Source: a virus
Reading direction: 5' to 3' (one strand)
Virus record (IMG/VR): IMGVR_UViG_3300036846_000673
Coordinates: 1 to 37,597 of that record
Length of the DNA: 37,597 nt
Shown: one piece after another, positions 2,665-21,669 of the stretch
Numbering within the stretch: position 1 is the first letter of the stretch
How the letters are laid out: every line of letters starts with the position of its first letter
Translations under genes and position numbers: made by a program
Notes under the pieces: generated by a model
The model's database searches: none
What the model saw: only the letters and a program-made list of their open reading frames with translations
What the model was told of the DNA's origin: nothing

Positions 2665-2672
2665 GGTTCATC

Positions 2673-3086
2673 TCACGCTGTCGGAGTGGCGGTGCCCCAC
2701 GGCGCTTGAACGGTCGCCGGGGTTCCCTGCCAAGTATTGACGTTGATGCCTTCCCAGCGCACGCGAACTTGGCCGTCGCGCGTCGTCTGCTCCAGCCCAG
2801 CCTTGCAAATGGCGTCCGTCATTTGGAAGTACCAGCCGTCTGCAAGCTGCGCCAAAACGGTCACGCCCACTTGGCCGTCGAGAGTAGTTATGTCGAAGTC
2901 AGGCGTAGTCGAGATGTCGGCTTCCATAAAAGGCACACGCGGCAATTCTTGGAAGCCGTGAACCCCGTCTTGGCCTGCGAGCATCGTTCGCTCGACCATG
3001 GAGTGGCTCACGGTGAAGTTGCCGCGCAGTCTCATTTGGATGGTGCCCGCCGTAAGATAGGCGACGCCAGCGATCTTCTGTGGCAT
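2673..3086 (-). CDS. Tail tube protein (Mu gpM-like)
   Basis: A 137-residue protein with the features of the Mu-type tail tube family: a start in the style of GVAYLTAGTIQMRLRGNFTV, a central FQELPRVPFMEADISTTPDF, then DGQVGVTVLAQLADGWYFQM. The last of these encodes the beta-hairpin and loop region that stacks into hexameric rings. Family members polymerise inside the contractile sheath to form the tube that conducts DNA. It directly follows the sheath gene and precedes the chaperone, which is the order in Mu and its relatives. The C-terminal WQGTPATVQAPWGTATPTA is low complexity and probably flexible. The start ATG at 3086 has a purine-rich upstream stretch (AGGAGTAACCC). Confidence 0.85.
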   Translation of the reverse strand: MPQKIAGVAYLTAGTIQMRLRGNFTVSHSMVERTMLAGQDGVHGFQELPRVPFMEADISTTPDFDITTLDGQVGVTVLAQLADGWYFQMTDAICKAGLEQTTRDGQVRVRWEGINVNTWQGTPATVQAPWGTATPTA

Positions 3087-3119
3087 GGGTTACTCCTGAT
3101 TTTCGAGTTGAATGATTGC

Positions 3120-4925: not shown

Positions 4926-4960
4926 TTGGGGCTCCTATCTGTTTGAAGATTGTTGGTTGC

Positions 4961-5269
4961 TTACGCGCCGGGCGAGCCACCGGGAGGGCCGCCCTTTGCT
5001 TGCTGCGGCTCCTGTTGCTTTTCTTCGACGGTGACGGAGCCGTCCGCGATCCGGCGCTGTGTGTACTTGTCGAGCGGCCAATCGACGGAGCCCTTCGACC
5101 GGAACGCCATGCCGCGCGGGTGCTTGAGGACGCGACGGATGTCCTCATTGGCAGGCAGGACCCGCACGCGCGGAACCTCTTTCCCTTTTCGGATGGCTTC
5201 AAGCCGCGCTTGCTTCGCCGCGTTGCGCGTCGCGCGCGGATCGGGACTCGGTGATGCCGGGACGACCAT
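4961..5269 (-). CDS. DUF2635-like small tail protein (Mu gp38-like)
   Basis: A 102-residue, basic protein directly upstream of the sheath gene. The central RVLPANEDIRRVLKHPRGMA and the following DWPLDKYTQRRIADGSVTVE match the layout of DUF2635 proteins (a short beta domain, then a W/Y....RR..DG.V element), found next to the sheath gene in Mu-like phages. The function of the family is not established. The N-terminal 30 residues are Ala/Arg rich and probably helical. The C-terminus is Gln/Gly/Pro rich and disordered. The gene lies 12 bases after the tail-terminator-like gene and 35 bases before the sheath start. Confidence 0.65.
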   Translation of the reverse strand: MVVPASPSPDPRATRNAAKQARLEAIRKGKEVPRVRVLPANEDIRRVLKHPRGMAFRSKGSVDWPLDKYTQRRIADGSVTVEEKQQEPQQAKGGPPGGSPGA

Positions 5270-5281
5270 AGCTTGTCTCCT

Positions 5282-6553
5282 TTACTTGGTTTTGGCTGGG
5301 GTGAATTCGTACTCGTTGATGATCCGCTGCACCTCCGATGCTGGCGGCACGGTACCATCGGGAGCCAGCGGCACCGTCTCCACGTGAAGGTCCCGAAGAT
5401 CGGGGAAGCCGGTCGGATACCAATTGGTGCGAAAGCGGAGCGTGGCGATGTATTCCAACTCTCCGATGGGCATCTCGCCGCTGCCGATCGTGCCCCACAT
5501 AGGCTTGCGCGAACCGCGCTCGACGCCCTCGAAACGGGTGTTGCCGGGCATTCCGCTCGCGATCATGTTGGTCAGATAGTCGTTGTTCCACAATCCGTTC
5601 ATGATAGCCCAGAACGCCGCATCGAGCTTCAATGCTGATGCCACTAAATCGTTGTTTTCGACGATGACTTGAAAGCCGATTTTCAGCGAATGCGTGAAGC
5701 GAATGTCGCCAGCATTTATGTCGCCATCCGGCCCCATTTCTTCGCCGATGAAATAGACCCCGAGATACGGCATGAGCGGTTGTTGGATCGGCAGCTGCTT
5801 CGATCGCCGCGCTTTGAAGCCGGCGAAGAACGGAAGTTGCACAAGCACGTAGAACATGCTGTCAACGATGATTTGCGAATAGCTCTGAACATCCGTGATC
5901 GCCTGCACGCGGAACGAAAGCGTGCCCGCAATGGCGCCGACGCCGCTGCTCGCAGCCGCGATCCAAGTCGGATCGATCTCCCCAGGCCCGGTCAACATCT
6001 GCCAAGCCGCCGCACCGGCCATGGCCGTTCCGCTGGCGTAGGGCGTGTTGTCGGTAATCGCGAAGCCGCTATCGACCGAAACGATGTTCGCCCCGATGCT
6101 CGCGGCCGTGATGACCAGCGCGGGCGACGTTGTCACGACCGGACCGGGCCTGATGCTCGCCGCTGGAGTGGAGATGTAAAACGACGAGGATTGGTCGAAC
6201 GCATCGGTGGTCGCAACGCCAGCAAACGCGAGCACGATCAGCGGCGCTTGCTCGGCCGTGCTGGTGAACGTGTGCCCAGGCCCCACCACGGGCGCACCAT
6301 CGCAATAGTAGATCGCAAGCCCGAGGGCGCCGCTGCCTTCGTTGACGATGAGCGTCCAAGCATTGTTCTTGCTGTCGGTGAGCGCTCCCACCACGGCATA
6401 GTTCGGCACCACGGCAACTAGAAGATTGGCCCCGGTGGTGTCGACCGGCGGCGTCGTGCCGGCGGCGCCCGCATTGCCGGGCATCGAAAGATGCGCAACC
6501 AGGGTCGCGCCGGATGCGGCCTTGGCTTTGCTCAAGGCAATTCCGGCAGCCAC
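5282..6553 (-). CDS. Tail-terminator-like protein with an N-terminal beta-sandwich domain
   Basis: A 423-residue protein in the slot that holds the tail terminator gene in Mu-like phages, just upstream of the sheath genes. The C-terminal 205 residues (from about IIVDSMFYVLVQLPFF) contain PYLGVYFIGEEMGPDGDINA and FTHSLKIGFQVIVENND, which look like a terminator or neck fold capping the tail tube. The N-terminal 200 residues are a separate Thr/Ser/Ala/Val-rich beta domain (LLVAVVPNYAVVGALTDSKN, then GLAIYYCDGAPVVG). That pattern recurs in phage surface and receptor-interacting proteins. The fusion is unusual because a terminator alone is about 200 residues. The start is either GTG at 6553 or TTG at 6535; the TTG would give a 4-base TTGA overlap with the previous stop, as elsewhere in this operon. 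Confidence 0.6.
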   Translation of the reverse strand: MAAGIALSKAKAASGATLVAHLSMPGNAGAAGTTPPVDTTGANLLVAVVPNYAVVGALTDSKNNAWTLIVNEGSGALGLAIYYCDGAPVVGPGHTFTSTAEQAPLIVLAFAGVATTDAFDQSSSFYISTPAASIRPGPVVTTSPALVITAASIGANIVSVDSGFAITDNTPYASGTAMAGAAAWQMLTGPGEIDPTWIAAASSGVGAIAGTLSFRVQAITDVQSYSQIIVDSMFYVLVQLPFFAGFKARRSKQLPIQQPLMPYLGVYFIGEEMGPDGDINAGDIRFTHSLKIGFQVIVENNDLVASALKLDAAFWAIMNGLWNNDYLTNMIASGMPGNTRFEGVERGSRKPMWGTIGSGEMPIGELEYIATLRFRTNWYPTGFPDLRDLHVETVPLAPDGTVPPASEVQRIINEYEFTPAKTK

Positions 6554-6933
6554 TTGCGAAGGACCAACGTCGTTTCACCGCCGCCGTTGCTCGACGTGCT
6601 TACGATCTCGAACTCGAAGATATTCGAACCATCTGGAGCCGTGGCGACCGTTAATCGATCAAGCTGTTGCGGCAATACCGCAAACTCGACCTCGCGGATA
6701 TCGAGGATGGTCTGCTGGTCAACCAGCATCGAACCATCGAGCAACGCCATCTGGATCATGCGCGTATTGTAGATGCCGCGGCCCGGGTAAGCCGCCGCGG
6801 TCGGTTGCGAGACGTAGGGATAGAATGTGACCGGCCGGGCAAACATATCGAACGCCGGCAGATACGGCATCAACGAAAAGTTGACGCCGCCGCCTCCGCC
6901 GAAATCGCCGGTGCTGCGCGATGACCTCACCAT
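6532..6933 (-). CDS. Small neck or head-tail joining protein, function unknown
   Basis: A 133-residue protein between the gp10-like and tail-terminator-like genes. It starts with a Gly-rich segment (DFGGGGGVNFSLMPYLPAFD), then TFYPYVSQPTAAAYPGRGIY, then an acidic beta-rich half (MLVDQQTILDIREVEFAVLP, EFEIVSTSSNGGGETTLVLR). The position and size suit a head-closure or neck protein, which plugs the connector after DNA packaging. The second half alternates hydrophobic residues in strands as in small beta-barrel neck proteins, but I do not see a decisive family motif. Stop and start codons overlap those of both neighbours, so translation is probably coupled. Confidence 0.55.
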   Translation of the reverse strand: MVRSSRSTGDFGGGGGVNFSLMPYLPAFDMFARPVTFYPYVSQPTAAAYPGRGIYNTRMIQMALLDGSMLVDQQTILDIREVEFAVLPQQLDRLTVATAPDGSNIFEFEIVSTSSNGGGETTLVLRKWLPELP

Positions 6934-7897: not shown

Positions 7898-9301
7898 TCA
7901 CCCAGTCTCGTCTTGAAACTTTTCGAAGAGCCCGCGCAGTTCAAGCGCCGGGCCTTGGCTACCGTCCGACATGATCGGCGTTGCGAGATAGGCGTCGCGG
8001 TCGATCTTCCACCCGCTGAGCTTCGCGGCGCGCTCGCCCTGCGGTCCGCGGTCGCCCTGCGCTCCGCGCTCGCCGCGCACGCCCGCGATGCCGCGCTGGC
8101 CCTGCCGCGTGAGCAATTGCCAGCCCTCGCCCGGGCACGGTCCCGGATCGTTGCGGCGCGCGATAAAGCTGCCCCCGTTGAGCGCGACAATGTCTAACGC
8201 GAAATAAGCCGTGTCGGCCTCGAAGGTGCCGCGCGGAATCGGCGTCGCCGCATCGCGCCCGCCGACGGCGAGGCATGCCCATTCATCTGAGTTGCCGGGC
8301 GGACGCCCGGTGTCGCGCAAAGCCTGATAGGTGCCGCCGAGATGAGTCACCACATCGCCAACGTAATGCACCCCGTCTTTCCACGCCTGGGCGATCTTGA
8401 GCTTGCCAACCGGCCCCTCGGCGCCCCGCTCGCCCGGCAGACCGCGCTCGCCCGCCGGACCAGCCTTGCCGATCTCGCCGCGCTCGCCACGCTCGCCACG
8501 CTCTCCCCGCGCTCCTGGGATGCCGCCTTCGCCGCGCGGGCCGATCGGACCGATGTCGCCACGTTCGCCCGATGCACCGGGTGCCCCAGGCAGCCCCCGC
8601 TCGCCACGTTCGCCCGCCGATCCGACGGCACCGGCCTCGCCGCGCGGACCGGCCTCTCCCGTGGCTCCGGAGGCTCCCGGCGCGCCCGTTTCGCCGGGCG
8701 GCCCAGAGGCGCCCGTCGGCCCAATCTCGCCCGCTGGCCCGCGCTCACCCGCCGGGCCGGCCTCTCCTGCCGCGCCGCGCTCGCCGACGGCGCCCGGGTC
8801 GCCAGGACCGCCCGGCGGACCGACAGGTCCGCGCTCGCCGACTGGCCCCGCCGGACCGACGGCACCGGGCTCGCCCTGCATCCCGCGCTCGCCAACCGGA
8901 CCCTGCTTGCCGATAGGACCCTCATCGCCGCGCACGCCCGGAAGTCCACGCAAACCTTGCTGACCTTGCAGCCCCGTCTCGCCGCGCTCGCCGATCGGAC
9001 CGGCTTCGCCGCGCGCGCCCGCCGGGCCGTCCGGACCGCGCGGACCGTCGGCGCCGTTGCGCACCAACGCCAACCGCGATTCCGTCTTGGTCGTCACCAT
9101 CTCGCGCAGCGTCAGCATCTCGGCGCGCATCTCCGCGATCGCCGCGCGCGCCTGGGCCGTGATCAGTTCGCGATCGCGGGCAGCCTGCTCGCGCTCAGTC
9201 TCAAGCAGTTCGCCGAGCGCCTCGCGCCAAGCATCAACTAACGCGTCGGCGGCGGTACCGGGAGGCGGCTGCCATGATGTGCTTGAGTTCTCTTCTAACA
9301 T
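7898..9301 (-). CDS. Collagen-like repeat protein with carbohydrate-binding-like modules
   Basis: A 467-residue protein starting at the ATG at 9301 (MLEENSSTSWQPPPGTAADA). Residues about 25-75 are a helical, Glu/Ala/Arg-rich segment (LGELLETEREQAARDRELIT) that could trimerise as a coiled coil. Residues 80-310 are about 75 uninterrupted Gly-X-Y triplets, mostly GERG, GPAG, GEAG and GAPG. Then follow two aromatic modules, AWKDGVHYVGDVVTHLGGTY and DTAYFALDIVALNGGSFIAR, each with the W/Y...G....GG.....R pattern of type-3 chitin-binding-like (CBM5/12-like) modules, separated by a second short collagen block. The whole resembles a fibrous virion appendage that contacts glycans. It sits between portal and connector, and its start overlaps the portal C-terminus by 68 bases in a different frame. 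The frame stays open upstream of 9301, but there it encodes Arg-rich shadow sequence. Confidence 0.85.
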   Translation of the reverse strand: MLEENSSTSWQPPPGTAADALVDAWREALGELLETEREQAARDRELITAQARAAIAEMRAEMLTLREMVTTKTESRLALVRNGADGPRGPDGPAGARGEAGPIGERGETGLQGQQGLRGLPGVRGDEGPIGKQGPVGERGMQGEPGAVGPAGPVGERGPVGPPGGPGDPGAVGERGAAGEAGPAGERGPAGEIGPTGASGPPGETGAPGASGATGEAGPRGEAGAVGSAGERGERGLPGAPGASGERGDIGPIGPRGEGGIPGARGERGERGERGEIGKAGPAGERGLPGERGAEGPVGKLKIAQAWKDGVHYVGDVVTHLGGTYQALRDTGRPPGNSDEWACLAVGGRDAATPIPRGTFEADTAYFALDIVALNGGSFIARRNDPGPCPGEGWQLLTRQGQRGIAGVRGERGAQGDRGPQGERAAKLSGWKIDRDAYLATPIMSDGSQGPALELRGLFEKFQDETG

Positions 9302-10694
9302 CTTCGCTGGCCTGTTTGGTTGGTACGGGTTCCGCTGGTGGCTTTTCGCCGGGCGGTGGCTTTTCCCCGGGCTTAGGCGCTGGCGGCGCGCCCGGCGGCG
9401 CGCCCGGTCCAGGCGACGCTGGCGCTGGAATCCCGGCCGCAGCGGATAAGGGCACGACCTGTTGTTGGACGCGCGGCTCGTCACCAAATTTAACTTTGTC
9501 GAGACCTTCGAGCGCGCGGGCTTCGTTTGGTGCGTAGATTCCGCCCTGCACGCCGCGCGCCAGCGCCTCGATTCTTTCCTTCTGCGCCGACCGCAACAGC
9601 GCCGCGGTATCGAATTCGCAATATTCTTCGGGCTGGCCCTTGAGCGCGAACAACACGCCAAATGCTTCCTCGATGTGATTGAGCGCAAAGCCCAGGCCGG
9701 TCGCGATCCAGAACTGCATCAGGGCTTCGGTCGATCCGAATGTTGTTCCGCCGAGGCCGAGGATTTGCATCGGGATGCGGAAGGCAAGCGCGATATGCTC
9801 TTCGGATAGCTTCATCATCTCGGCCAGCTGGGCGTCCTTGCCGCCGACCGACCAGGGCTGAACCTTCAGGCCAGCTGTGAGGATCGGCGTTCCGCCAGCG
9901 TTCAATGATCGTGACATCTCATTCCACCGATCACGGAGGCTCTGAACCTGATCTTTATCGAGCACAAGGTCTGTTGTCAGCACCGCGCTCGGCCGCGCTT
10001 GGTTGTTGTAGAAGTTCAATTGTTGCTGGCTGATGGCTTCGCTGACGCCAATGTCGTTGAGCGCCGCCAGCAACGGCGACTGCCCCCAAAGCGGGAATGG
10101 ATAGCGCCGGGTTCGATCGGCGTGCAACTTGATATGCAGCACGTCACGTTGCGGACCTATCAGCGGCTTCTCGTCGAGCCGCCGCGCGATGACTTGATTA
10201 CCATACAGCCGGTAAAACACCTCACCGTCGACGGAAAGCTGCGGGCGCGACAAGTACGAATCCATCAAATGCAATTCGTTGATCTCGTAGCGGTCATTGC
10301 GCAGCGCGAGGGCGTAGGCGTTGCCCTCAAGATATAACAGCCGCGTCGCGTTCAGCAGAAAGTCGGAGATGGATTGATAGTTGTTTGGAACGCGCAGGAC
10401 GCGCGCCAGCGCTGAATTCTTGACGCGTTCGCGGCCACCCTTGTCGTTCGTTCGCCAGTGGCCGCCGGGACACATCGCAACTGTCTGGCTGTAGGCCGAG
10501 ACGCACGCTTCTACCAGGGCCGAGCTTGTCGACCAAGGCTGGACGTTATTGCCGGTCTGCCACCAGTTCGTCGGCGACCCGTCCGGCAGCCAGCCGCCAG
10601 AGTATGGCAGATAGTAGGGGCCGGGCCGAGGGGCGCCCTCGACCGCGCGCAGCACACTTTGCCACGCGCGTGCTACAAGATCGCGAGCGCCCAT
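9234..10694 (-). CDS. Portal protein (HK97 gp3-like)
   Basis: A 486-residue protein starting at the ATG at 10694 (MGARDLVARAWQSVLRAVEG). It carries the layout of HK97-type portal proteins: LVEACVSAYSQTVAMCPGGH, then NATRLLYLEGNAYALALRND, then DVLHIKLHADRTRRYPFPLW (the 'H.....d...G.SPL' region), and ISQQQLNFYNNQARPSAVLT. This is followed by the wing and the crown-like Pro-rich C-terminus. Dodecamers of the portal form the vertex through which TerL pumps DNA. The C-terminal 60 residues are a Pro/Gly/Lys tail (PGPGAPPGAPPAPKPGEKPP). The gene starts 7 bases after the 95-residue gene. Portal lies downstream of the capsid gene here, whereas the common HK97 order is portal-protease-capsid. Confidence 0.9.
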   Translation of the reverse strand: MGARDLVARAWQSVLRAVEGAPRPGPYYLPYSGGWLPDGSPTNWWQTGNNVQPWSTSSALVEACVSAYSQTVAMCPGGHWRTNDKGGRERVKNSALARVLRVPNNYQSISDFLLNATRLLYLEGNAYALALRNDRYEINELHLMDSYLSRPQLSVDGEVFYRLYGNQVIARRLDEKPLIGPQRDVLHIKLHADRTRRYPFPLWGQSPLLAALNDIGVSEAISQQQLNFYNNQARPSAVLTTDLVLDKDQVQSLRDRWNEMSRSLNAGGTPILTAGLKVQPWSVGGKDAQLAEMMKLSEEHIALAFRIPMQILGLGGTTFGSTEALMQFWIATGLGFALNHIEEAFGVLFALKGQPEEYCEFDTAALLRSAQKERIEALARGVQGGIYAPNEARALEGLDKVKFGDEPRVQQQVVPLSAAAGIPAPASPGPGAPPGAPPAPKPGEKPPPGEKPPAEPVPTKQASEDVRRELKHIMAAASRYRRRRVS

Positions 10695-10701
10695 TTCACA
10701 T

Positions 10702-10989
10702 TCAGCCTGTCTTCGCGGGAGTGGCTTGCCGCGTCTGGTATGCAGTGCCAGCGGCCGGTTTCTTGGCCTCCAGCGCCTTGTTCGCAAGCACGCCTGGATC
10801 GAGGTCCGATCCGTCCGGCTCATGCTCGGCAAAGTGCGCGCCGAGCACCGCCAAGTCATTTTCTTCTTGAGTTGGCGTTGGCTTGCCCTTCACCCGTTCG
10901 AGGAATTCCTGCTTGGACTTCTCGCTCACCTTGCGATCTTCAGCAAGCTGCTTCTTCGCAGCTTCGTTTTCGGGAGGTTGGTCAGCCAT
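10702..10989 (-). CDS. Small charged protein between capsid and portal, unknown function
   Basis: A 95-residue, highly charged, hydrophilic protein with no membrane segment. The first half is helical (ENEAAKKQLAEDRKVSEKSK, then QEFLERVKGKPTPTQEENDL). The second half contains AVLGAHFAEHEPDGSDLDPG and ends in a basic tail. I do not recognise a family. The location between the major capsid and portal genes suggests a scaffold-like or head-completion role, as short charged helical proteins are often found there. It has AGGAG 6 bases upstream of its ATG at 10989, so it is well set up for translation. Its stop is 7 bases ahead of the portal start. Confidence 0.6.
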   Translation of the reverse strand: MADQPPENEAAKKQLAEDRKVSEKSKQEFLERVKGKPTPTQEENDLAVLGAHFAEHEPDGSDLDPGVLANKALEAKKPAAGTAYQTRQATPAKTG

Positions 10990-11029
10990 GGGGATTGCTC
11001 CTGTGTGTGGTTACGGGTATATTCGTCGA

Positions 11030-11101
11030 TGAGGCGGCGGTCGGGTGCCAAAGAAGAGATGAAACCCAGAGATCGTTTGCGCTCGAAGCTCCGCCGCCTC
11101 A
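11030..11101 (-). repeat. Inverted repeat between capsid and the small charged gene
   Basis: An 11-base perfect inverted repeat (TGAGGCGGCGG at 11030-11040; CCGCCGCCTCA at 11091-11101) lies in the 129-base gap after the capsid stop, enclosing about 50 bases. There is no T run after it, so it is more likely an mRNA processing or stability element than a terminator. No gene fits this gap convincingly. Confidence 0.45.
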
Positions 11102-11118: not shown

Positions 11119-14100
11119 TTAGCTCCAAGTTGTTGCTTGAGTCCAAGCAATCGTTCCAGCGCGACGCTGAACCCAATTGAGCGGCATCACCATTCTTAGG
11201 GCGATGCTATCTGTTTGGAACAGCGAACGTTGCGGAGCAGCAACAACACCAGGCGACCCAGGACCAACCAAATCAAGCGGGTTCGTGTCTTCCATATGGA
11301 GCGTCGCCTGATCGCTCAATTCCAGACGTGGTGCTTCTCCGCCAACAACAACAAAATCGGCAGCATCGATCAAGATCATCGTATGCGGCGCGACCGTCAC
11401 CGAGTCGATGATCGGAATGGTGTTGAGCGTCCCATTCCTGATCTCATCGCGGAACGGGAAGATACCAGTGTTGGGCGCGGACGCCAGCGATGCAGAAAGA
11501 ATATCGCCGGGGTTCAGGAGCCACGTCGGCTCACGCAGATTGCCGAACGTGCTGGCCACGAGCGCCTGGGTCACCAGCTTTATATCGCCGATGAGCGCCG
11601 GAAGTCCGCCGCCCGCAGTCGGCGTGAGTCCAGCAACACCATTCAACAAACCGGGCGGCCGGATCACGGTCGCCGGATTGGCATCAAGCAAAACGGTGTC
11701 GATCGCGACGGCCGTATCGATCTGCACCGCCTCGCGCAACAGACCTTCGATCGCAGGGATGCTGTGATCATTCATCTCACGGGTCCAAACTGAGATGACC
11801 GCGACCTTCTTAGGCGTGAGCGTCTGTGACGCGAATGCGCCCTGCCGCACGGGGATCGCCATGCCCTCACCAACAAACGAACCGGCGATGGTAGGAGTTC
11901 GCTGGCGCGTCGGGATGATGATGCGCCCGGCGTTCCCAAAGTTGAGCGTCAGTCCTCTGGCAGCTAGCCGCCGCAGGATCGCCTTCGGGTAGAGTAGGTC
12001 CATAAAATCAGTGTAGATTTGTTGGACCAGTTCCGCCGCCCATCCGGTGACGGTGGTCATGGCCGGTGCGGACGCTGCGCGAAGCACGATTTCGCAGATT
12101 CCCTTGGTCGGCTCGTCGTCGCCGTAGATGCGCTGCCGGATTTCATCGGCTTGCCGTCCCGTCGTCTTGACGAAGTACGCCACGACTCCGGCGCGAATGA
12201 TGTAGTCCAAAGAGCTTAGCTCTTCGGCTTTCTTGCGGGCCGGCGGCAGAACGATGTCCTTCTCGCGATCGCGCCGGGACGAGATCGCCAACGTCAGCGC
12301 GCGGCTGCGCGTGCCGCCATTGTCGCCGCTGCCGTTGTCGGCCGTGCGGCCGAGCGCCTTCTCGGAGTCTTTCAGCACCGCGTGCTGCTTCTCAAGTTGC
12401 AGGATCGTCGCGTTGAGATCACTGCTCGTCTGAACGTCGGCGTCACTCACGTTCGAGTCGTCGATCTTATCCAAGTGCGCTTGGAGGGCGTCGCGCTTTT
12501 CAAGCAACGCTGCCTCGATGTCCGTAATTCTTTGAGCGAGCGGCGTCATGGCCGTGCCCTTTCCTTTCGAAGATGTGTCGGCGTGCTTGCCAGTGAGCCC
12601 GCGCTGAATGACCGCGTCTTTTTTGCCGTGCTTGGCGAAGACGATGTCGAGTGTTTGCGGGGAAACCTTTAGCGATTTGGCGATGGCCAGTGCGTTCGCA
12701 TTCGCCGGCACCGCCACCAGCGATGTTTCGATGAGTTCTTGCCGAATGAAGCGCATGCCTGCCCAGGCGCCATCGTCTGACTTGCGCATTTCGCTTTGCA
12801 AGTCTCGGAAGCCGACGCTCACGGCCCGGAGTACGCCCGCCTCGATCAGCTTTCTGATCTCGTCGATGCGAGGTGACGTGCCTTCGGGCGCCAGTTTCAG
12901 CTGGCCGCGCAGGCTGCGATCTTCGACCCGCAGGTTCTTCCACGTGCCGATCGGGAATCCCGGGTTGTGGTTGAACAGGGCGATGGGATTTTTCTGGAAC
13001 GAAACTGTATCCCACCCGTCTTGTTGGATCACATCCCCCATCCGATCGATGCTCTCATCGGACAGGATAAAGTCCATGCCGTGCACTTCTTCCGCGTGCG
13101 TCTTGCGCCGGACTGCGGCCTTGGCCGCGCGATTCTCCCACGCCATTTGACAGGCTTCGAGCGCGTCGTCGTCGTCGACGCTGGCATCGTTGTCGGTGAC
13201 CTGATCAACGCAGCGGTCGAGAAAATCGTCCTGGCCCTCATCGTCGTCCGGATCGGGAATGTCGTCCGGATCAACTTGCTTGCCGGTGTGGTGCGCGTCC
13301 CTCCACATCGTCATACAAGCGGCGACGGCTTGCTCTTGCGGGCGCTCGGTGCCGCCGCCCTGGCCCATTAGATCGGGCACACAGCGGGCCATCCAGTCCT
13401 CTTGCGTCTCTTCTTTTCCTGGCTTGATCGGCATGGCGTTGCCTTTCTCTTCGTTGCTGTCATCGCCGCTCTTGGGCGCTTCGCTCGCCGGCTTCTTACC
13501 GGCGCCGCCCGTCCACTTCTCAGCTTCGGCGATCAGCTTGGTTATCGAGATATCGACGCGGGCGACCTTGACGCTCTTGTCGTCGTGCAGATTGTTGTCC
13601 TTGGCGTCGACGCCCAGCTGTCCGGCCCAGGTGTGATGCCCGTCCAGAATGTAGTCGTCCCGCGAGACGACCAGCCTTTTGTAGAAGCCTTCTTTCTTGA
13701 TGCGCTTCATTGCGGCGGCGACTTTTTCTCCGCTGATCTCGTTCTGGGTCGCGCGCAGGTTGGCCGCGTATTCCTTGTCCTTCTCGACCTTATAACCTTC
13801 GCCCTTCAGATACTTGATGAAGGCCTTTGTTTGCTTGGCCGGAATCACCGGCATTTCGACGCGGGGGATTCCCTTGCTCTCGGCGCAGAACAGGTTGGTG
13901 CCTTCGACCGAGACGTTGCACAGATTGAACACGGGCGGCGTCTTGCCCGACGCTTCCATCTTGGCAGCGGTCTTGCCCAAGAGCTTGATCAGCGTCGAGA
14001 CTTGCTTTGGTTGGTGTAGCTCGACCTTGCGATTCTCGAACAGCGCCCGTTGCGCGTCGTAAACGCTTGGCGTGTGGATGACGCCGTCCTTGACGTAGGC

Positions 14101-14472
14101 GTCCTTCGAGTAGCCCTCGCCCGGGTGCCCGTCGGAGCCGTTGCCGCCGCCGTCGCCACCGCCGTCGGTCCACTTGCCGCTCTCGTCCCGGGGCTCGTCG
14201 GAGACATCGTGGCCACCGCCCGCGCGCAAGGTCGCAAGTCTGGCCAACGTTTGCTGGACTTGCTGCCGCAGCACGGTCCAGGCGGTCGCCTTTTCCTCGG
14301 GCGGCGCTGGCGGCGCGGGCGGCTTGCCCTTATGCGCCGCGCGATGCTTGGCGCGGATCGCCTCGCGGCGCGGGTCGCCCTCAAAGCGCTGCACCGGGCT
14401 CAGCCAGTGCGGCGACTTATCGTCGACCTCCATCTGCAAGATGTCGATCGGTATCCGTTTCGGTTCGGTCAT
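11119..14472 (-). CDS. ParB-like / prohead protease / major capsid fusion protein
   Basis: A 1117-residue reading frame from an ATG at 14472 that overlaps the previous stop as ATGA; an ATG at 14535 is possible but less likely. Domains in order: residues 70-110 hold the shared head tag (QQVQQTLARL, then VSDEPRDESGKWTDGGG). Residues 120-330 hold a module with VSRDDYILDGHHTWAG, the ParB-like 'DG.HR...A' signature. Residues 345-445 are acidic, with two Cys-containing repeats. Residues 463-600 are an HK97-family prohead protease (S78): GMDFILSDESIDRMGDVIQQ, catalytic-type His in LFNHNPGF and Ser in AVSVGFRD. From 642 there is a coiled-coil scaffold-like delta domain, then the HK97-fold capsid (IPVRQGAF, LFQTDSIALRMVMPLNW). 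In-frame ATGs with AG-rich upstream sequence occur at 13434 and 12549, so separate protease and capsid products may also be translated. Maturation would cut the fusion. Confidence 0.8.
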   Translation of the reverse strand: MTEPKRIPIDILQMEVDDKSPHWLSPVQRFEGDPRREAIRAKHRAAHKGKPPAPPAPPEEKATAWTVLRQQVQQTLARLATLRAGGGHDVSDEPRDESGKWTDGGGDGGGNGSDGHPGEGYSKDAYVKDGVIHTPSVYDAQRALFENRKVELHQPKQVSTLIKLLGKTAAKMEASGKTPPVFNLCNVSVEGTNLFCAESKGIPRVEMPVIPAKQTKAFIKYLKGEGYKVEKDKEYAANLRATQNEISGEKVAAAMKRIKKEGFYKRLVVSRDDYILDGHHTWAGQLGVDAKDNNLHDDKSVKVARVDISITKLIAEAEKWTGGAGKKPASEAPKSGDDSNEEKGNAMPIKPGKEETQEDWMARCVPDLMGQGGGTERPQEQAVAACMTMWRDAHHTGKQVDPDDIPDPDDDEGQDDFLDRCVDQVTDNDASVDDDDALEACQMAWENRAAKAAVRRKTHAEEVHGMDFILSDESIDRMGDVIQQDGWDTVSFQKNPIALFNHNPGFPIGTWKNLRVEDRSLRGQLKLAPEGTSPRIDEIRKLIEAGVLRAVSVGFRDLQSEMRKSDDGAWAGMRFIRQELIETSLVAVPANANALAIAKSLKVSPQTLDIVFAKHGKKDAVIQRGLTGKHADTSSKGKGTAMTPLAQRITDIEAALLEKRDALQAHLDKIDDSNVSDADVQTSSDLNATILQLEKQHAVLKDSEKALGRTADNGSGDNGGTRSRALTLAISSRRDREKDIVLPPARKKAEELSSLDYIIRAGVVAYFVKTTGRQADEIRQRIYGDDEPTKGICEIVLRAASAPAMTTVTGWAAELVQQIYTDFMDLLYPKAILRRLAARGLTLNFGNAGRIIIPTRQRTPTIAGSFVGEGMAIPVRQGAFASQTLTPKKVAVISVWTREMNDHSIPAIEGLLREAVQIDTAVAIDTVLLDANPATVIRPPGLLNGVAGLTPTAGGGLPALIGDIKLVTQALVASTFGNLREPTWLLNPGDILSASLASAPNTGIFPFRDEIRNGTLNTIPIIDSVTVAPHTMILIDAADFVVVGGEAPRLELSDQATLHMEDTNPLDLVGPGSPGVVAAPQRSLFQTDSIALRMVMPLNWVQRRAGTIAWTQATTWS

Positions 14473-16247
14473 GCGGCCAACGGGACTTCTTCGAATTCCG
14501 GCGCCTGTTTCGCCCAGGCGTCCCATCCTTTCCACGCGGTGCCAGCCACTACGACCTCTTGCTCGCTGTGGACGTTGATGCCGTAGGCAGGCACCGAGAC
14601 GGCGGCCGTGCGGGGAACCTGGGCGCGCAGCACGACGCGGTTCTTGTCTGCGCCCCAGCCGTTGGCGATGCTAGGCGATACGCTGGTCGAGGCGGCGCCG
14701 TTGCGCACCACGTCGAGCGTCGGCAAATGCTGGTACTTGCCGACCGTGCGGAGCAGTTGCGCCTTCATGTGCGTCATCGCCGCGCTGAATGTTTCCGGCG
14801 TCAATTTGATGCCGCGATAGACATCGAGAGTCTTGATGCCCGCCTTGTCGAGCAGGTATTGCGTCGTCTCCCACTTGGCGCGGACGTATTCCTTGACGCC
14901 ATCATAGCCGCCGACGTTGGCCCAATTGTTGGCGCGAGCGATCAGTTCGGCGCGGTCGATGTCGGTCGATGTCTTGGCGTTGAGCCGTCCGCCCAACTCA
15001 TCAGCGATGGCAACTTGCAACATCTTGCCGCCGTTCGAGGTTGATGAACCCTTCCAATCGCTCCACAAACGATTGTCCATGTCCTTAACCGCTCGCGTCA
15101 ATTCCGGCGTCACTTCACCCTTGAGCACGTTCTTGGCGATCAGCTGGGCGGCGCGCTCGATTGATAGTTGGCGCGCGAGCGCCTGCGTTCGCCTGTAATC
15201 CTCGCCGCTGGTCGCATTGAGCGGATCGAAGGTCTTGGGAAGCGCGACGACTCTCCCCTGCTCGACCGGCGTCTCTTCATTGATCAGTTCGGTGTTGCTC
15301 TTGGTCCACTCGAACTTGCTCTTGTCGGACATGCCGTCGTTCCAGTCGCTTTCCATCATTTCGGTCGCGCTGTCCTCGAAATAGTCGGGCGCATCTAGGC
15401 TATCGCTCTTATGGTCGGACTCCTTGTCGAACGCCTTCTCGATCGCCTTGCTCAACCCGTCGCGCATATCCTCGGTCAGCTGCTCTTCCGGCTTGAGCGG
15501 CTCAATGCCCGGCAGCGTTCCTTGTTCCGGCGGCGGCAGATTGCTCGGCTCCTGCAACTTTTCGTCGTCGAAGTTCACTTCGAACTTGCCTCCGCCGTCG
15601 TACCCATCCTGATAGGTCATCGAGATCGCCGCCATCAGCTGATCTTTGGTGTATGGAATGCGGCCGTCGAACTCGGCGATGAAACCATCGATGGCATCCG
15701 CGGCCCAATCTGTTTCCTTGTTCTCGTTGAAATCGTGGACGACGATTGACTTTGCCTCATCGAGCGCTTGGCCGCTCTCATACCAATTCTGCTTCTCGTT
15801 ATCGATGTAGTTTGACAGGCTTTGCTCTTTGTAGGCTTCGAAGGCGGCCTCTTGGTCAGCTTCGCTGACTTGGTCCCATTCCTCTGGGACGAAATCGCCG
15901 TCCTCATCATCATCAACCGAGCCGCCGCCGATCGTATGGCCGACCGCGTCCGATGCCATCTTGTCCAGCGTCGGCTTCGCGGTCTGGTATTCGCGTTCCA
16001 GCCGTTGCGCGGTGGCCTTGTTCCATTCGTCGCCGCCGACCGAGATCACATGCGGGTCGAGCGCGGGCTCGGCCGCGGGCTTCTCGGCGCCGCCGCCACC
16101 ACCGTCGCCGCCGCCCTCGGTCCATTTGCCCGACTCGTCGCGCGGCTCGTCGGAAACGTCGTGGCCGGCGCCGCGCAAGGCAAGTCGGGCCAGCGTTTGC
16201 TGGACTTGCGACCGCACAACCGCCCAGGACTCCGCCGTTGCTGGCAT
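14469..16247 (-). CDS. Head-tagged protein with a C-terminal ADP-ribosyltransferase domain
   Basis: A 592-residue acidic protein. The N-terminus repeats the tag of the capsid fusion (RSQVQQTLARLA, then DVSDEPRDESGKWTEGGG), the two encoding regions being similar even at the DNA level. Residues 60-330 are an acidic helical region rich in Asp/Glu. The C-terminal 220 residues carry the arrangement of R-S-E-class mono-ADP-ribosyltransferases: Arg in LDVYRGIKL (about 478), Ser-Thr-Ser in GAASTSVSP (about 520), and Glu-Gln-Glu in HSEQEVVV (about 562-564). An E-x-E end is typical of arginine-modifying enzymes. Such enzymes transfer ADP-ribose from NAD to host proteins, and phages are known to carry them (T4 Alt is packaged in the head). 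Packaging here is inferred from the tag and the operon. The gene ends ATGA-coupled to the capsid fusion. Confidence 0.72.
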   Translation of the reverse strand: MPATAESWAVVRSQVQQTLARLALRGAGHDVSDEPRDESGKWTEGGGDGGGGGAEKPAAEPALDPHVISVGGDEWNKATAQRLEREYQTAKPTLDKMASDAVGHTIGGGSVDDDEDGDFVPEEWDQVSEADQEAAFEAYKEQSLSNYIDNEKQNWYESGQALDEAKSIVVHDFNENKETDWAADAIDGFIAEFDGRIPYTKDQLMAAISMTYQDGYDGGGKFEVNFDDEKLQEPSNLPPPEQGTLPGIEPLKPEEQLTEDMRDGLSKAIEKAFDKESDHKSDSLDAPDYFEDSATEMMESDWNDGMSDKSKFEWTKSNTELINEETPVEQGRVVALPKTFDPLNATSGEDYRRTQALARQLSIERAAQLIAKNVLKGEVTPELTRAVKDMDNRLWSDWKGSSTSNGGKMLQVAIADELGGRLNAKTSTDIDRAELIARANNWANVGGYDGVKEYVRAKWETTQYLLDKAGIKTLDVYRGIKLTPETFSAAMTHMKAQLLRTVGKYQHLPTLDVVRNGAASTSVSPSIANGWGADKNRVVLRAQVPRTAAVSVPAYGINVHSEQEVVVAGTAWKGWDAWAKQAPEFEEVPLAA

Positions 16248-16251: not shown

Positions 16252-16545
16252 CTACATGCAGATGAGCGTGAGGGTGCGATCGGCTTCCTGCTCTATCGGC
16301 GATTCGGCCGAGCCCGATCTGACGGCTACGTAGGTGGCTGCTTGCGTGACCGCCGAGTCGACCATGATCGCGCAGCCGGGCTTTATGGCACCGTTTATGT
16401 TGTCGTCAGAAATCATGAAGCTGACATTGGCAGGCGTCCAATCAATGGGCGCCAGAATCAACAAGACCGATCTGGCCGAGAGATCGCCGGAACTCGATAG
16501 AGATTCCCCGGCCGGGATCGTGAGGTGGAGCGTTAGCTTAGGCAT
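16252..16545 (-). CDS. Small beta-rich head-associated protein, putative decoration protein
   Basis: A 97-residue protein starting MPKLTLHLTIPAGESLSSSG. Alternating hydrophobic strands and the blocks APIDWTPANVSFMISDDN and ATYVAVRSGSAESPIEQEA resemble a widespread small phage protein type with an 'I.aG.slS....' start, an 'dWTpA.vsF.iS.DG' block and a final 'lRSG....p..Q.a.R' block. These appear beside capsid genes and are believed to sit on the head surface, but a specific function is not established. It overlaps the stop of the TPR-glycosyltransferase by 8 bases and ends 4 bases before the ADP-ribosyltransferase protein begins, so all three are likely co-translated. Confidence 0.55.
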   Translation of the reverse strand: MPKLTLHLTIPAGESLSSSGDLSARSVLLILAPIDWTPANVSFMISDDNINGAIKPGCAIMVDSAVTQAATYVAVRSGSAESPIEQEADRTLTLICM

Positions 16546-17737
16546 CGGATGCCTCCAGCTGTGCGAGCGCGCTGTCCCAGTCGCCCGCGATGGTCTGGCG
16601 GCGGACGGTCACGTTGTCGTACCAGGGCGCGAGCCAGCGCCAGCTGGCATAGTGGCTCAGCAGCGCGTCGACGCGCGGATGGCCGATCGCGCCGGCAAGA
16701 TGCAGCGCGGCCGTGTCCACCGTCACGATGCGATCCATGGCCAGCATCAGGGCGGCGCAGTCGGCGAAAGTCTTGAGTTCGTGGAATTGGACGTGGTGTT
16801 CTAGCGCTTCGAGGCCGCCCTGCTTTTGCACGCTATGCAAATTTGCATTACCGAGCGCGCCGACCAGCTGACCGAGCGGAATCGCGCGCTGATAATCTTC
16901 CGGGCGCTGCACCGACGCCGACCACGCGATGCCGACGTGCCGTCCGGGGCCGAGTTGCTCGCGCGCGCGCGCGACCGCGGATGGCTCGATGTGAAGGTAA
17001 GGCCTGCCGCTGACGGTGTCCGGGCTGACGGATAGCATGCCGACGACATGCAGGAGCGGGCAGACGAAATCGCAATCGTCCAGGCCGTCGATCACGGGCG
17101 CGAACTGCGCCGCGAGCGCGGTCAGTTCTTCCGGCACCATCAGAACGACCTCGGCGCCGAGCGACCGGAGCAGCGGCACATAGCGCAGCACCATAATGGC
17201 GTCGCCAAATCCGTGCGTGTGCATCAGCAACAGCCGCTTGCCGGAAATGTCCTCGCCGTTCCACACCTTCAGGCCCGCATCGATGGCGTCGGCGATCCGC
17301 TCCCGCCTGAACGGTGGCCGCATCTCACATGCGCGGTATTCATCGAAGCCTTCGCGCCAGCGGCCGAGCGCCAGCAGGATCATCGCACGGTTGAAGCGGG
17401 CATAGAGCGTTGGCGCCTGCGCGATGACGGCGTCTATTTCGAGCAGCGCTTCGGTGTTCAGATTCTCGCGCGTGAGCGCCAGCGCGCGGTTGAAGCGCGC
17501 CACATAATCGTCGATGCGCAGCTGCTCGCGGATCGAGCGCGTGTGACGGCTGGCGTTCTTGCCGCGCATGATGGTCAGATCACCGTCATCCGGCATCGCG
17601 GCCTTGTGGCCATTGCGGCTGCGCACTTCGAGGATTTCACCCTTCGCCGTCAGCGCACGCCAGCCGTATTCCGTTTCCTCCTGCGCGATGATCGCCTCAC
17701 CATCGGGCAGCGGCTCGACGAAAGTGGACTCCTTCAT
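16538..17737 (-). CDS. TPR repeat protein with a GT9-like glycosyltransferase domain
   Basis: A 399-residue protein starting at the ATG at 17737, which overlaps the stop of the capsid paralogue as ATGA. Residues 76-140 look like tetratricopeptide repeats (ARFNRALALTRENLNTEALL, then YARFNRAMILLALGRWREGF). Residues 160-399 match the GT-B type, heptosyltransferase-like domain often joined to TPRs in bacteria: GKRLLLMHTHGFGDAIMVLR, then VGIAWSASVQRPEDYQRAIP, then the C-terminal DRIVTVDTAALHLAGAIGHP and a Trp-rich WRWLAPWYD block. In that family the first block is the acceptor-side glycine loop and the second half binds the sugar nucleotide. The substrate is unknown. Position inside the head operon suggests glycosylation of capsid, tail or host surface glycan. 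The frame is open upstream but as shadow sequence. Confidence 0.75.
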   Translation of the reverse strand: MKESTFVEPLPDGEAIIAQEETEYGWRALTAKGEILEVRSRNGHKAAMPDDGDLTIMRGKNASRHTRSIREQLRIDDYVARFNRALALTRENLNTEALLEIDAVIAQAPTLYARFNRAMILLALGRWREGFDEYRACEMRPPFRRERIADAIDAGLKVWNGEDISGKRLLLMHTHGFGDAIMVLRYVPLLRSLGAEVVLMVPEELTALAAQFAPVIDGLDDCDFVCPLLHVVGMLSVSPDTVSGRPYLHIEPSAVARAREQLGPGRHVGIAWSASVQRPEDYQRAIPLGQLVGALGNANLHSVQKQGGLEALEHHVQFHELKTFADCAALMLAMDRIVTVDTAALHLAGAIGHPRVDALLSHYASWRWLAPWYDNVTVRRQTIAGDWDSALAQLEASDA

Positions 17738-19716
17738 TTCCAACTCGGCGTCGTCCACGCGACCGCGCGCGGATCGCGGATCGCCCATGACAGGGGCCAC
17801 CGCATTTTCAGCGCGACGGAATCGGTCTGGAACAGGCTGCGCGCGGGCGAGGCCGGTGCACCACCGTTCACGATCGGCAGAGGCGTATCGTTCATATGCA
17901 ATTCGGCCGCCGTCGAAGCCTCGATCTCGGGCTGCGGGCTGATGGCGGCCACCAGCGCCAGCGGTGCCACGCACATGAGGTCGTTGCCCATGGCGTTGCT
18001 TGCGAGCACCGCGACGTTGCCCGCCTGGAGCACGAACCGCATGACCATGGCGGCGATGCGCCCAGGCGAGCCGATGAGCACGAAGGGGCCGTTGCCGCCG
18101 ACGACCGAGACGGCGTTGATGAGCGTGGCGCAGTCCTCGAAGAATGCCTGGAACGCGTCGGGCGACGCGCTCGGAGGCGTCGTCGCGACGCCGCTGCGCA
18201 AGCCAGCTGGCTGGGCAGCCGTCGCCGCCGCGGAACCGAAGAGCGCCACGTCGAGCGCCGCCGAGGCTGCCCGCATGAGCGTGTCGCCGACCAACACTTC
18301 GGCGTTGGACGATTCGATCATCTCGCGGCTCAGCACGCCGATGGCGCCAAGTTTGTACGGCTGCATGAGCGCCGCCGTCGCCGCCAGCTGGCGCACTGGA
18401 ATCGGTGCGCCCTCGGCAACGAAGCCAGCGTTGGCGGCGCCCGCCACGAAGCCGGGCGCGCTGATCAGGCCGTTGCCGTCGAACATCAGGACGAGAGATT
18501 GCATGAGCAAACGCGCGCCCGCCGCCGATGGACCCATGCCCTCAAGCCCGTCATACACAACCTTGTGGGCAAGCTCGGCGGCCCATCCCGCGACGGTCGT
18601 CATGGCCGGTGCCGAAACCGAGCGGGTAAGCAGCTGCGCCAGCACCTTGTCTGATGGCCAGAGATTCCCAGCGACATCGAGCGCCGGGCGCCGCGTGGCG
18701 CTCGCGATGGCGCGCGCGGTGAGCAGGCGCAGGAACAGATTCCCGCCGGGCAACGGCGGCGGCTCGCGATCGCGGCGCGCTTCTGCGCGGGCGCGAAACG
18801 GCTCGACCAGAGCGTTCATGTGATTCGGCTCCCGTGTTAAAGTTTTCTCAGCTTGCATCCGCACCGCTGCCCAGGCCTTCGAGCGGGCGAGCTTTTCGAG
18901 CGCAGCCGTCTGCGCGGCCACGCCCGCGTCGTACGTCGCAATGCGCTCGCCATCGCCCGGCTTGTAGGCCGCCGCGTGTTCTGGGTCGTGGACCATAAAG
19001 ACAACGTCCGGCCGGCCGTTGTTATACAAGCCGTATCTTTCATAATCCCAGTCCGGCGGCGCGTATTCATCATTGAATGGAAGGCGCGCGACCGCGCGAA
19101 ATCCGTTCTCAGCGTAGAGCTTTGGTAGGACCGTATCGAACGCGTCGAGCTTATTGCCGCCAGCTTGGACCGCCATCGCCAGCGCCGAGTCCGCAAAGCG
19201 GCTGGCGCTGGAATCCGGATGTTTGAATACCGAAACGATGTCGCCATCGCTCTTGACCGAGACGCCGGCTTTGCCGTCCGGAGTCGTGAAGGTCCGCATA
19301 CCCGCGTAATCAGCGGCCGGATAGGTCGCCACGGCGGCGCCGAAATTGCCGGCCGTCTTCGCGGCCACTATCGCGTCGTGGAAACGCTGGCCGCCGCCAG
19401 CGGTCTGTTTCAGTTCGTGAAATGTAACTGGTGTGGAACGGGGTAACGCCGTGCGGCCGGCATCGTTTAGATCGTAGACGCCAGCTACATCCCGGCTTCC
19501 CTCAAGTCCCGTAGGGCTACGTCGATCGTAAGCTTGGGATGCTGTTCCAGAACTCCCTGGAGTAGCGCCCGATCCCACTCCGGAAGGTTTTTCGCCTCCG
19601 GATGGTTCGCGATCGCCGCCGCTATCTCCGCCGTCCGTCCATCTGCCTGCGTCATCTCGTGGCTCGTCTGGGTCAAATCCCCGGGCGTATATAGGCGCTC
19701 CGCTGCGGCCTGTCAC
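17734..19716 (-). CDS. Second capsid-like (HK97-fold) protein with N-terminal head tag and GNAT-like domain
   Basis: A 660-residue protein with a GTG start at 19716. Residues 14-30 are the shared tag (FDPDEPRDDAGRWTDGG), followed by a Gly/Ser/Pro linker. Residues 90-260 form a folded-looking domain that ends LPKLYAENGFRAVARLPFN, the 'LY...GF..VAR' element seen in GNAT N-acetyltransferase-like domains; this is a tentative assignment. Residues about 330-660 parallel the major capsid of the neighbouring fusion: SAPAMTTVAGWAAELAHKV, GFVAEGAPIPVRQL and the identical RSLFQTDS near the end, then the 'ALKM..PLsW' strand. The protein lacks the long coiled-coil delta domain and the protease. It is best read as a minor or decorating capsid paralogue. 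The stop overlaps the next ATG as ATGA. Confidence 0.75.
   Translation of the reverse strand: MTGRSGAPIYARGFDPDEPRDDAGRWTDGGDSGGDREPSGGEKPSGVGSGATPGSSGTASQAYDRRSPTGLEGSRDVAGVYDLNDAGRTALPRSTPVTFHELKQTAGGGQRFHDAIVAAKTAGNFGAAVATYPAADYAGMRTFTTPDGKAGVSVKSDGDIVSVFKHPDSSASRFADSALAMAVQAGGNKLDAFDTVLPKLYAENGFRAVARLPFNDEYAPPDWDYERYGLYNNGRPDVVFMVHDPEHAAAYKPGDGERIATYDAGVAAQTAALEKLARSKAWAAVRMQAEKTLTREPNHMNALVEPFRARAEARRDREPPPLPGGNLFLRLLTARAIASATRRPALDVAGNLWPSDKVLAQLLTRSVSAPAMTTVAGWAAELAHKVVYDGLEGMGPSAAGARLLMQSLVLMFDGNGLISAPGFVAGAANAGFVAEGAPIPVRQLAATAALMQPYKLGAIGVLSREMIESSNAEVLVGDTLMRAASAALDVALFGSAAATAAQPAGLRSGVATTPPSASPDAFQAFFEDCATLINAVSVVGGNGPFVLIGSPGRIAAMVMRFVLQAGNVAVLASNAMGNDLMCVAPLALVAAISPQPEIEASTAAELHMNDTPLPIVNGGAPASPARSLFQTDSVALKMRWPLSWAIRDPRAVAWTTPSWK
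19485..19676 (-). CDS. Possible overprinted small gene inside the capsid-paralogue linker
   Basis: A 63-residue frame from a TTG at 19676 (TQTSHEMTQADGRTAEIAAA) to a TAG at 19485, read in a different frame over the Gly/Ser/Pro linker of the larger gene. The predicted protein is helical with an ordered-looking end (LPEWDRALLQGVLEQHPKLT, then IDVALRDLREAGM). Third codon positions in this frame are visibly richer in G/C than in the larger frame over the same bases, which is the coding pattern elsewhere in the operon. However, the overlapping frame carries the conserved tag, so both cannot be freely optimised. It may be a dual-coding region, or the small frame may be the relic of an older gene. 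Confidence 0.3.
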   Translation of the reverse strand: MTQTSHEMTQADGRTAEIAAAIANHPEAKNLPEWDRALLQGVLEQHPKLTIDVALRDLREAGM

Positions 19717-20001: not shown

Positions 20002-21669
20002 TCACGCGATCAACGTATCCAGATCGATCGGCTTGGCGGTTCGATCCCGCGCGCGAAGTCCGAGCATCATGGCGAGCGCGACCGCGCCGTCGATCCTGAA
20101 CCTCGCTTTGTCCTTGTCGATTTTCCGATTCCCGGCTGGGTCCATCGTGGCCACCGCATTTGCCAGATTCCAATTGAGAACGGGGCTGGAGGGGTGGATG
20201 ATCGTGCGCTCGGTGATGGCAAGTTCGAGCGCATCGATAGCAGGCCCCATATCCTTGTATCCCTGACCCCACGGCAAAATTCGCAAGCCATCTCCGCCTT
20301 TCTCCCCTTCTTTGTATGCTTGGAGTCCGATCCTATCAAACTCTCTCAGCAACTCATCGACGCGCCAGCGATCATAAGCGAGGCCGCGAATTTTCTGCAT
20401 CTGGCCAAGTTGCGCGATGAACGTCGCGATCACGGCCGGATCGATCGAGCGGCCTGGGGTGGTCATCAGATGACCGCTGGCGAGCCATTCCTGATAACGA
20501 TGGCTCCCGCTTCCGAAGTCGCGCACCGAATGTTCCGCCAACAGTTCGCGCGGCTTCCAAAAGAAAGCGCGGATGCGGGTCGGATCGTTGACGGTGCCCA
20601 TAACGAGCGCCGTGAGATCGACCACGCTTGAGAGATCGAGGCCCAGGTAAACCTCTTCGCCTTCCTCAATGCTGACCGAGCCAGCGCACGCCATCCATTC
20701 AGCACGAGAGATCAGCGACGCCGTCGGCGAGACTCGCTGATTGAGAAATAAGTTCCTGACCTTCGGCTCTTCGGCCGGCATGCGCTTGGCCTTGCGCACG
20801 GCGGTGACGAGGTCATCGCGGTCGCGCCACTTGCCGAGCGCAGGGTTGGCCTTCAACCACTGCGCCTCGTCTTCGAGATCGCATTCCTCGTCCGCGGCGT
20901 GCAGATGGCAGACGATCGCCGGATCGTTCTTCGAGAGGCCGTCATCGATGAGCTTGGACAGAATATGCTCTGGATCGTTCGACTGCGTGCTGATGACCAC
21001 GAAGAGTGGTTCGCTGCGCGCACCAAATGAAGTGTCCAGCACGTCGTAGAGATCGCGGCTCTTGGCCTGCGCCAACTCATCGTAGATCGCTACGCTCGGC
21101 AGATAGCCGTGCTTCGTTCCGGCTTCGGCCGAGACTGCGCGAAAGATCGAGCCCGTCGGGTGCGCAATCATGGTCTTGGTCGAGCCAATGATTTCGATCT
21201 GGGGTCGCAGGATCGGCTCGCGCTCGACGATCTGCTTCGCGAACTTGAAGATGATGGACGCCTGATCGCGATCGTTCGCGGCGCTGTAGATTTCCCCGTT
21301 CTGGATCGCCTCGGGGCCGATCAGATGCGCGAGCACGATGGCCGCGATGATCGCTGACTTGCCGTTCTTGCGCGCTACTGACAGGATCGCGCGGCGCACG
21401 ATGCGACGCTTGCCGCGATGAGGCTCGTAAATGTCGCGGATAAAGTCTTTTTCCCATTCGTCGAGAGTGAACAGGCGCCCTTCGCCGATGCCGCTCGGAA
21501 TCGTCAGCGCTTCGATAAACTTGATGACCTCGCGGGCGCGCTTGCGCCCGTATGCGGAGCGCTTAACCGCCGCCGAGGAGTCCCGTGAACTTGTTGGCCT
21601 TCGTGCTGGCGATAGGCCCGGTGGCAATTCGCGCTCTGGCGCTTGGGGTAAGTCCGAATTCGGTGGCAT
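20002..21669 (-). CDS. terL: Terminase large subunit (TerL)
   Basis: A 555-residue protein of the HK97/P27-associated Terminase_1 type. The ATPase half has the Walker A segment SVARKNGKSAII (about 97-108) and Walker B PSVAIYDELA (about 191-200), with VVISTQSNDPEHI following as the coupling motif region. The nuclease half shows the acidic clusters YLGLDLSSVVDLTAL, GLAYDRWRVDELL and RIDGAVALAMMLG. TerL docks on the portal, pumps DNA into the prohead and cuts the concatemer. The annotated ATG at 21669 overlaps TerS by 107 bases, which is long; the first 35 residues are low in family features, so translation might begin later at a non-ATG codon. The stop is followed by the double-hairpin repeats. 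Confidence 0.93.
   Translation of the reverse strand: MPPNSDLPQAPERELPPGLSPARRPTSSRDSSAAVKRSAYGRKRAREVIKFIEALTIPSGIGEGRLFTLDEWEKDFIRDIYEPHRGKRRIVRRAILSVARKNGKSAIIAAIVLAHLIGPEAIQNGEIYSAANDRDQASIIFKFAKQIVEREPILRPQIEIIGSTKTMIAHPTGSIFRAVSAEAGTKHGYLPSVAIYDELAQAKSRDLYDVLDTSFGARSEPLFVVISTQSNDPEHILSKLIDDGLSKNDPAIVCHLHAADEECDLEDEAQWLKANPALGKWRDRDDLVTAVRKAKRMPAEEPKVRNLFLNQRVSPTASLISRAEWMACAGSVSIEEGEEVYLGLDLSSVVDLTALVMGTVNDPTRIRAFFWKPRELLAEHSVRDFGSGSHRYQEWLASGHLMTTPGRSIDPAVIATFIAQLGQMQKIRGLAYDRWRVDELLREFDRIGLQAYKEGEKGGDGLRILPWGQGYKDMGPAIDALELAITERTIIHPSSPVLNWNLANAVATMDPAGNRKIDKDKARFRIDGAVALAMMLGLRARDRTAKPIDLDTLIA

Follow-up and report, generated by a model that had tools for sequence, protein, structure and literature searches.

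A conserved second HK97-fold capsid protein, joined in frame to a GNAT-like module in a small lineage of phages

Bacteriophage T4 carries a major capsid protein, gp23, and a vertex capsid protein, gp24, which are HK97-fold paralogues with about 20% identity, and it removes 10 residues from gp24 by cleavage (PMC9958956). This pair, already on record, speaks against the view of the earlier note on the DNA studied here that two capsid-type proteins in one phage are rare. The T4 protein gp21 has an internal in-frame start at Met45, and the internal proteins of T4 are loaded into the head as cargo by short signals at their N-termini, the capsid targeting sequences (PMC9026906). T4 Alt is an ART cargo packaged in the head, and polyvalent phage proteins, in which GNAT and ART domains are combined, are thought to be packaged as well (PMC5512222). 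Two capsid genes in one phage are known from T4; a capsid subunit with cargo attached to it would be a novelty.

The locus described here lies in a stretch of viral DNA of 37,597 nucleotides that was analysed as a whole (the window; positions 1 to 37,597 of IMG/VR record IMGVR_UViG_3300036846_000673). An open frame on its minus strand runs uninterrupted over 660 amino acids from a GTG at 19716 to a stop at 17734, just as previously described, and comprises a tagged GNAT-like module followed in frame by a second capsid protein, which we call c2 (Table 1). We found no family for the 660-aa protein in Pfam or NCBIfam, and phmmer returned no sequence relative among solved structures.

Table 1. Features of the locus, with positions in the window
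Feature	Position	Strand	Basis or remark
Whole open frame: tagged GNAT-like module, then in-frame c2 (second capsid protein)	17734..19716	-	660 aa
N-terminal tag FDPDEPRDDAGRWTDGG of the module, with a Gly/Ser-rich linker behind it	19627..19677	-	motif counts
GNAT-fold domain, residues about 96-246	18979..19431	-	AlphaFold, Foldseek, VIA-align
Stretch of 75 nt ahead of the internal ATG that hardly varies among the window, L001 and L002	18820..18894	-	3-genome alignment
Junction helix AWAAVRMQAEKTL	18838..18873	-	by inspection
Shine-Dalgarno-like GGGAG, 9 nt before the internal ATG	18829..18833	-	comparison with free c2 starts
c2, HK97 fold, 361 aa from the internal ATG	17734..18819	-	profile, structure, dN/dS about 0.08
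MCP open frame: tagged ParB-like module, prohead protease, delta domain, major capsid	11119..14535	-	Peptidase_S78, Phage_capsid, PHROG 617 E 4e-81
Likely separate protease-MCP gene, in-frame ATG of MPIKPGKEE with AAAGG upstream	11119..13434	-	relatives' starts
Tagged protein with ADP-ribosyltransferase-like C-terminus (YRG, STS, EQE, by eye)	14469..16247	-	motifs
TPR and glycosyltransferase-9-like protein, overlapping the end of c2	16538..17974	-	weak Glyco_transf_9
Terminase large subunit (TerL), upstream of the c2 open frame	20002..21669	-	
Portal protein	9234..10859	-	Phage_portal E 3e-66

The open frame ends in a genuine second HK97-fold capsid protein, a paralogue of the major capsid protein (MCP) of the same operon. 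Homology of c2 to a known family of major head proteins is seen in its match to PHROG 617, 'major head protein' (E 1.3e-10), and in the alignment of the c2 profile with the MCP profile by hhalign (336 columns, E 2.9e-66); Pfam Phage_capsid did not match c2. Over ~420 aa the two proteins of the operon share 31% identity (E 5e-38), the identity of c2 to phage MCP along its length is 31-36%, and the blocks SAPAMTTVxGWAAEL, V(A/G)EGxxIPVRQ and RSLFQTDS, which had been pointed out as parallel to the MCP, were all found in c2. A Foldseek search of the PDB with the AlphaFold model of c2 (pLDDT 76.8, pTM 0.73) placed HK97-fold capsids and encapsulins at the top (E 3e-11), in agreement with the HK97 fold (E-loop, spine helix, P and A domains) that had been proposed for the C-terminal half. 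With a dN/dS of about 0.08, c2 is under strong purifying selection, and on this ground we rejected the possibility that it is a pseudogene; a recent copy of the window's own MCP was rejected too, because c2 and MCP form separate clades across the 153 rows of the tree described below.

The MCP of the window is itself of the HK97-type protease-MCP fusion kind (NCBIfam NF045541, PHROG 617), and c2 shares the capsid domain of these fusions but lacks their protease and delta domain, both of which are missing from the entire 660-aa frame, as the earlier note had reported. Like the T4 pair gp23 and gp24, c2 and the MCP are two HK97-fold paralogues in a contractile-tailed phage (a tail sheath gene is present in the window) of which the minor one has diverged (31% identity here), whereas gp24 carries no enzyme-like module.

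c2 is an old, conserved gene that the relatives of the window kept beside the MCP. Searches with c2 gave 40, then 80 viral loci and in addition 27 bacterial loci, mostly from Bradyrhizobium and other Alphaproteobacteria. When records were scored with the profiles of both families, c2 and MCP occurred together in 48 of them, including a Bradyrhizobium prophage (this count includes the window and a few near-duplicates), and in being a paralogue kept beside the MCP, c2 agrees with gp24-like vertex proteins. In the tree of 153 rows, built by a quick method that leaves its deep branches less sure, a branch with support 85 separates the MCPs from all other rows, and a starred group (support 99) takes in 71 of the 75 c2 rows, the remaining four being long, weakly placed bacterial rows; the core c2 group holds 52 rows (support 100). 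Pairwise distances in c2 correlate with those in the MCP (r 0.66, 39 records) more strongly than with those in TerL (0.36), and the correlation with the portal is 0.71, although linkage of head genes would correlate the distances anyway. Nearly all relatives carry c2 as a free gene of about 350-380 aa, and the simplest arrangement is that of the Bradyrhizobium stylosanthis BR 446 prophage (L041), with the gene order TerL, c2, protease-MCP, portal, where c2 occupies 10004-11062 and the MCP 11146-13278. Retention of c2 by a wide range of alphaproteobacterial phages makes the role of minor HK97-fold subunits a question that can be tested outside T4, for example in this prophage. A literature search in a library with few subscription journals found nothing direct on phages that are not T4-like and have a second HK97 capsid gene.

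Some records depart from this pattern. Two c2-type capsid genes per record were observed in L011, L081, L104 and L108, the second type forming a separate clade of 7 rows (support 100), and in L081 and L104 the two types together with the MCP amount to three HK97-fold genes in one head cluster. In three other records (L051, L057 and L064) a c2-type capsid gene adjoins an integrase with no MCP within +-10 kb, and L057 also has a primase and L064 a small terminase; such elements may be phage satellites that have a capsid gene of their own.

For the N-terminal half, a GNAT-like domain fused to the capsid-like part had been claimed, and a GNAT fold is what the model indicates: AlphaFold predicted the domain with a pLDDT of 88.7, and its listed structural matches are almost throughout GNATs (best Foldseek E 2e-3, VIA-align Z up to 10.3). 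The description of this N-terminus as enzymatic-looking stands as far as the fold is concerned but not for the canonical acyl-CoA P-loop, [QR]xxGx[GA] between beta-4 and alpha-3, in place of which the window reads HPDSSASRFADSALAMAV by inspection; because this motif is absent, we name the module GNAT-like and not acetyltransferase. The dN/dS of the module, 0.14-0.17, indicates purifying selection, from which we judge that the module is translated, and as no stop separates it from c2, its in-frame translation should yield a module-c2 fusion protein. Homologues of the module are found at the C-terminus of the VG15-type minor capsid protein in Microbacterium phages, with UtzChips as an example of such a fusion, at the C-terminus of a protein annotated as minor capsid in a Methanobrevibacter virus, and inside very long polyvalent proteins. 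The locus thus resembles MuF polymorphic toxins and polyvalent proteins in combining a head protein with exchangeable effector-type domains such as ART and GNAT (PMC5576092, PMC5512222). Unlike in the MuF and portal systems, the head partner here is a paralogue of the capsid shell protein and the module is N-terminal to it; a MuF domain was not found in the 660-aa frame, which sets it apart from MuF polymorphic toxins.

The modules start with (F)DPDEPRDxxGRWTxGGG. The pattern PRDxxG[RKQ][WF] yielded 81 tags in the open frames of 48 records, out of a set of 144 made up of the window and 143 loci, compared with 0 for the reversed and 1 for the permuted motif, the count being biased upward because some records were recruited by the tag peptide itself. 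An unrestricted scan with a DNA pattern gave 99 tag stretches in viral contigs, and among the 88 newly fetched tag loci, 39 contain a relative of one of the window's head genes. Phages unrelated to the window bear the tag on proteins with MuF and ADP-ribosyltransferase domains, with a Mu-type portal and MuF, or with a prohead protease. The tag might serve as a linker, act as a loading signal or mark a recombination seam; a loading role like that of the capsid targeting sequences of T4 is no more than an idea. Searches for this sequence could lead to effector domains associated with phage heads. The tag with its Gly-rich linker was also seen in two further frames of the window (14469-16247 and 11119-14535) and in L157, L170, L186, L188 and L203, and L021 has a single open frame of 1938 aa (775-6588) with three tags and with the protease and MCP at its end.

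Among the records compared, the in-frame fusion of module and c2 occurs only in the window and in L001 and L002, which are ~90% identical to it; the same open frame is present in both, and sequencing error was thereby ruled out as its source. In L003, whose c2 is 86% identical to the window's, c2 directly follows TerL with no module, and in L008, L009, L019 and L084 a different tagged gene with its own stop lies upstream of c2. The fusion is thus local to a small lineage and not the general arrangement, and the enzyme-capsid frame described earlier is confined to three genomes, c2 being free-standing in nearly all relatives. Within the fused frames of these three, c2 has kept its ATG (18819) and an identical GGGAG; the homologous ATG is where free c2 genes begin, usually behind sites of the GGAG/AGGAG type. 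Because c2 retains its own start codon and ribosome site in the fused frame, it is likely made as a separate product from this internal ATG.

The 75 nt ahead of the ATG are the least variable stretch of the frame, with 2 variable columns where the mean elsewhere is 22. Their dS is 0.06-0.12, compared with 0.43-0.72 for module and capsid, and they contain zero amino-acid changes. This low variation fits a constrained initiation region, and a recent recombination tract could look alike. By inspection, the junction helix AWAAVRMQAEKTL is similar to the leader found ahead of the tag in other proteins that bear it, for example TWAAVRAEVERTL in L003. Local RNA folds around the internal start revealed no shared structure, and a frameshift at the junction was considered, where there is a TAA in the +1 frame just ahead of the ribosome site, but by eye we found no slippery site. 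The module itself starts poorly in the window, with a GTG and a weak ribosome site, the ATG of L001 and L002 having been lost.

The MCP frame repeats the layout of the c2 frame, with a tagged front module, no stop behind it, and a retained MPIKPG start and AAAGG, and it is at the MPIKPG start that the stand-alone protease-MCP genes of relatives begin. In several records the MCP gene is preceded in frame by a tagged module. The idea that in the c2 frame a different domain replaces the protease therefore needs correction, because the MCP frame too has a tagged in-frame module, ahead of its protease, and both capsid genes retain their own starts. We also asked whether the MCP junction is another example of conservation at the nucleotide level, which did not hold, its conservation being not unusual.

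We consider nested in-frame units, giving a free minor subunit c2 and some module-c2 fusion, the best explanation of these patterns, and somewhat more probably right than wrong. The inner unit, with ATG 18819 and its own ribosome site, would make c2 without delta domain or protease, and by analogy with T4 gp24 this protein would most likely be built into the MCP shell in a minor share, for instance at the vertices. The outer unit, starting near GTG 19716, would be the tagged GNAT-fold module without a stop of its own, so that ribosomes on the module would have to run on into c2 and produce some fusion. As in T4 gp21, one head gene would have nested in-frame products, which is a prediction here. 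In the established HK97 structure, the N-termini of the subunits face the interior of the prohead, where the N-terminal delta domain lies, and because of this orientation the module of an assembled fusion would be placed inside the head, from which it could exit with the DNA. The fusion protein, if produced, would be a naturally occurring capsid subunit with its own cargo, something so far known for MuF and internal proteins and not for the shell. More tentatively, and with rather more doubt than confidence, we suggest that the phage builds an enzyme-like cargo into the shell through a native minor-capsid fusion, with the nested starts setting the ratio of free to cargo-bearing subunit, and that the tag marks a general system coupling cargo to head proteins (capsid, protease, portal and MuF).

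In favour of nested units we count the HK97 fold of c2 and its paralogy to the MCP, the co-occurrence of c2 and MCP as two clades with correlated distances, the purifying selection on c2 and module, the retained start, the nearly invariant junction with its low dS, the parallel layout of the MCP frame, the module homologues on minor capsid proteins, the joining of head proteins with effector-type domains by the tag, and the precedents of gp24, gp21 and GNAT domains in polyvalent proteins; the firm parts are that the second capsid gene is conserved and that it has kept its start. We count against them the poor module start in the window, the confinement of the fusion to three close genomes while other relatives keep module and c2 separate, the recombination tract that could underlie the junction, the ordinary conservation of the MCP junction, and a vertex placement that comes from analogy. 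Several of these points would equally suit ordinary neighbours that share a frame by chance after a stop was lost in the lineage, with a rare or functionless fusion and c2 alone as the minor capsid protein, and we regard this as possible, if doubtful. It would account for a fusion limited to the window, L001 and L002, for the separate tagged genes upstream of c2 in L008, L009, L019 and L084, and for a retained c2 start next to a weak module start; a missing stop needs little explanation either, since stop-free stretches are common in GC-rich DNA. It is harder to reconcile with purifying selection on a module whose in-frame translation necessarily yields the fusion, with a junction that varies less than any other stretch of the frame, and with the tagged modules that are also in frame with the MCP gene in several records.

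The remaining alternatives concern what c2 does rather than how it is made. That c2 is an assembly factor outside the mature shell, such as a setter of head size or a competitor of the MCP in prohead assembly, seems unlikely to us; its lack of delta domain and protease is compatible with such a role, and the MCP-less c2-type genes beside integrases (L051, L057 and L064) would fit satellites that remodel the heads of a helper, but that they are satellites is guessed from the surrounding +-10 kb. Encapsulins likewise lack the delta domain and carry cargo, and with encapsulins among the top Foldseek matches c2 might build a shell of its own around the GNAT-like module. We hold this to be very improbable, given that c2 is 31-36% identical to the MCP, sits in the head operon and mostly has no in-frame cargo; operon location and paralogy to the MCP speak against membership of the encapsulins.

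Around these capsid genes, the tagged ADP-ribosyltransferase-like gene of the window, for which neither Pfam nor PHROG gave a match, is conserved between c2 and MCP in several relatives. The TPR/glycosyltransferase-9-like gene adjoins c2 in many relatives and is absent in the Bradyrhizobium stylosanthis prophage, and a sugar role at the capsid or tail is conceivable. Further along, the window encodes a collagen-like tail fibre protein (7898-9688) with a weak match to a carbohydrate-binding module.
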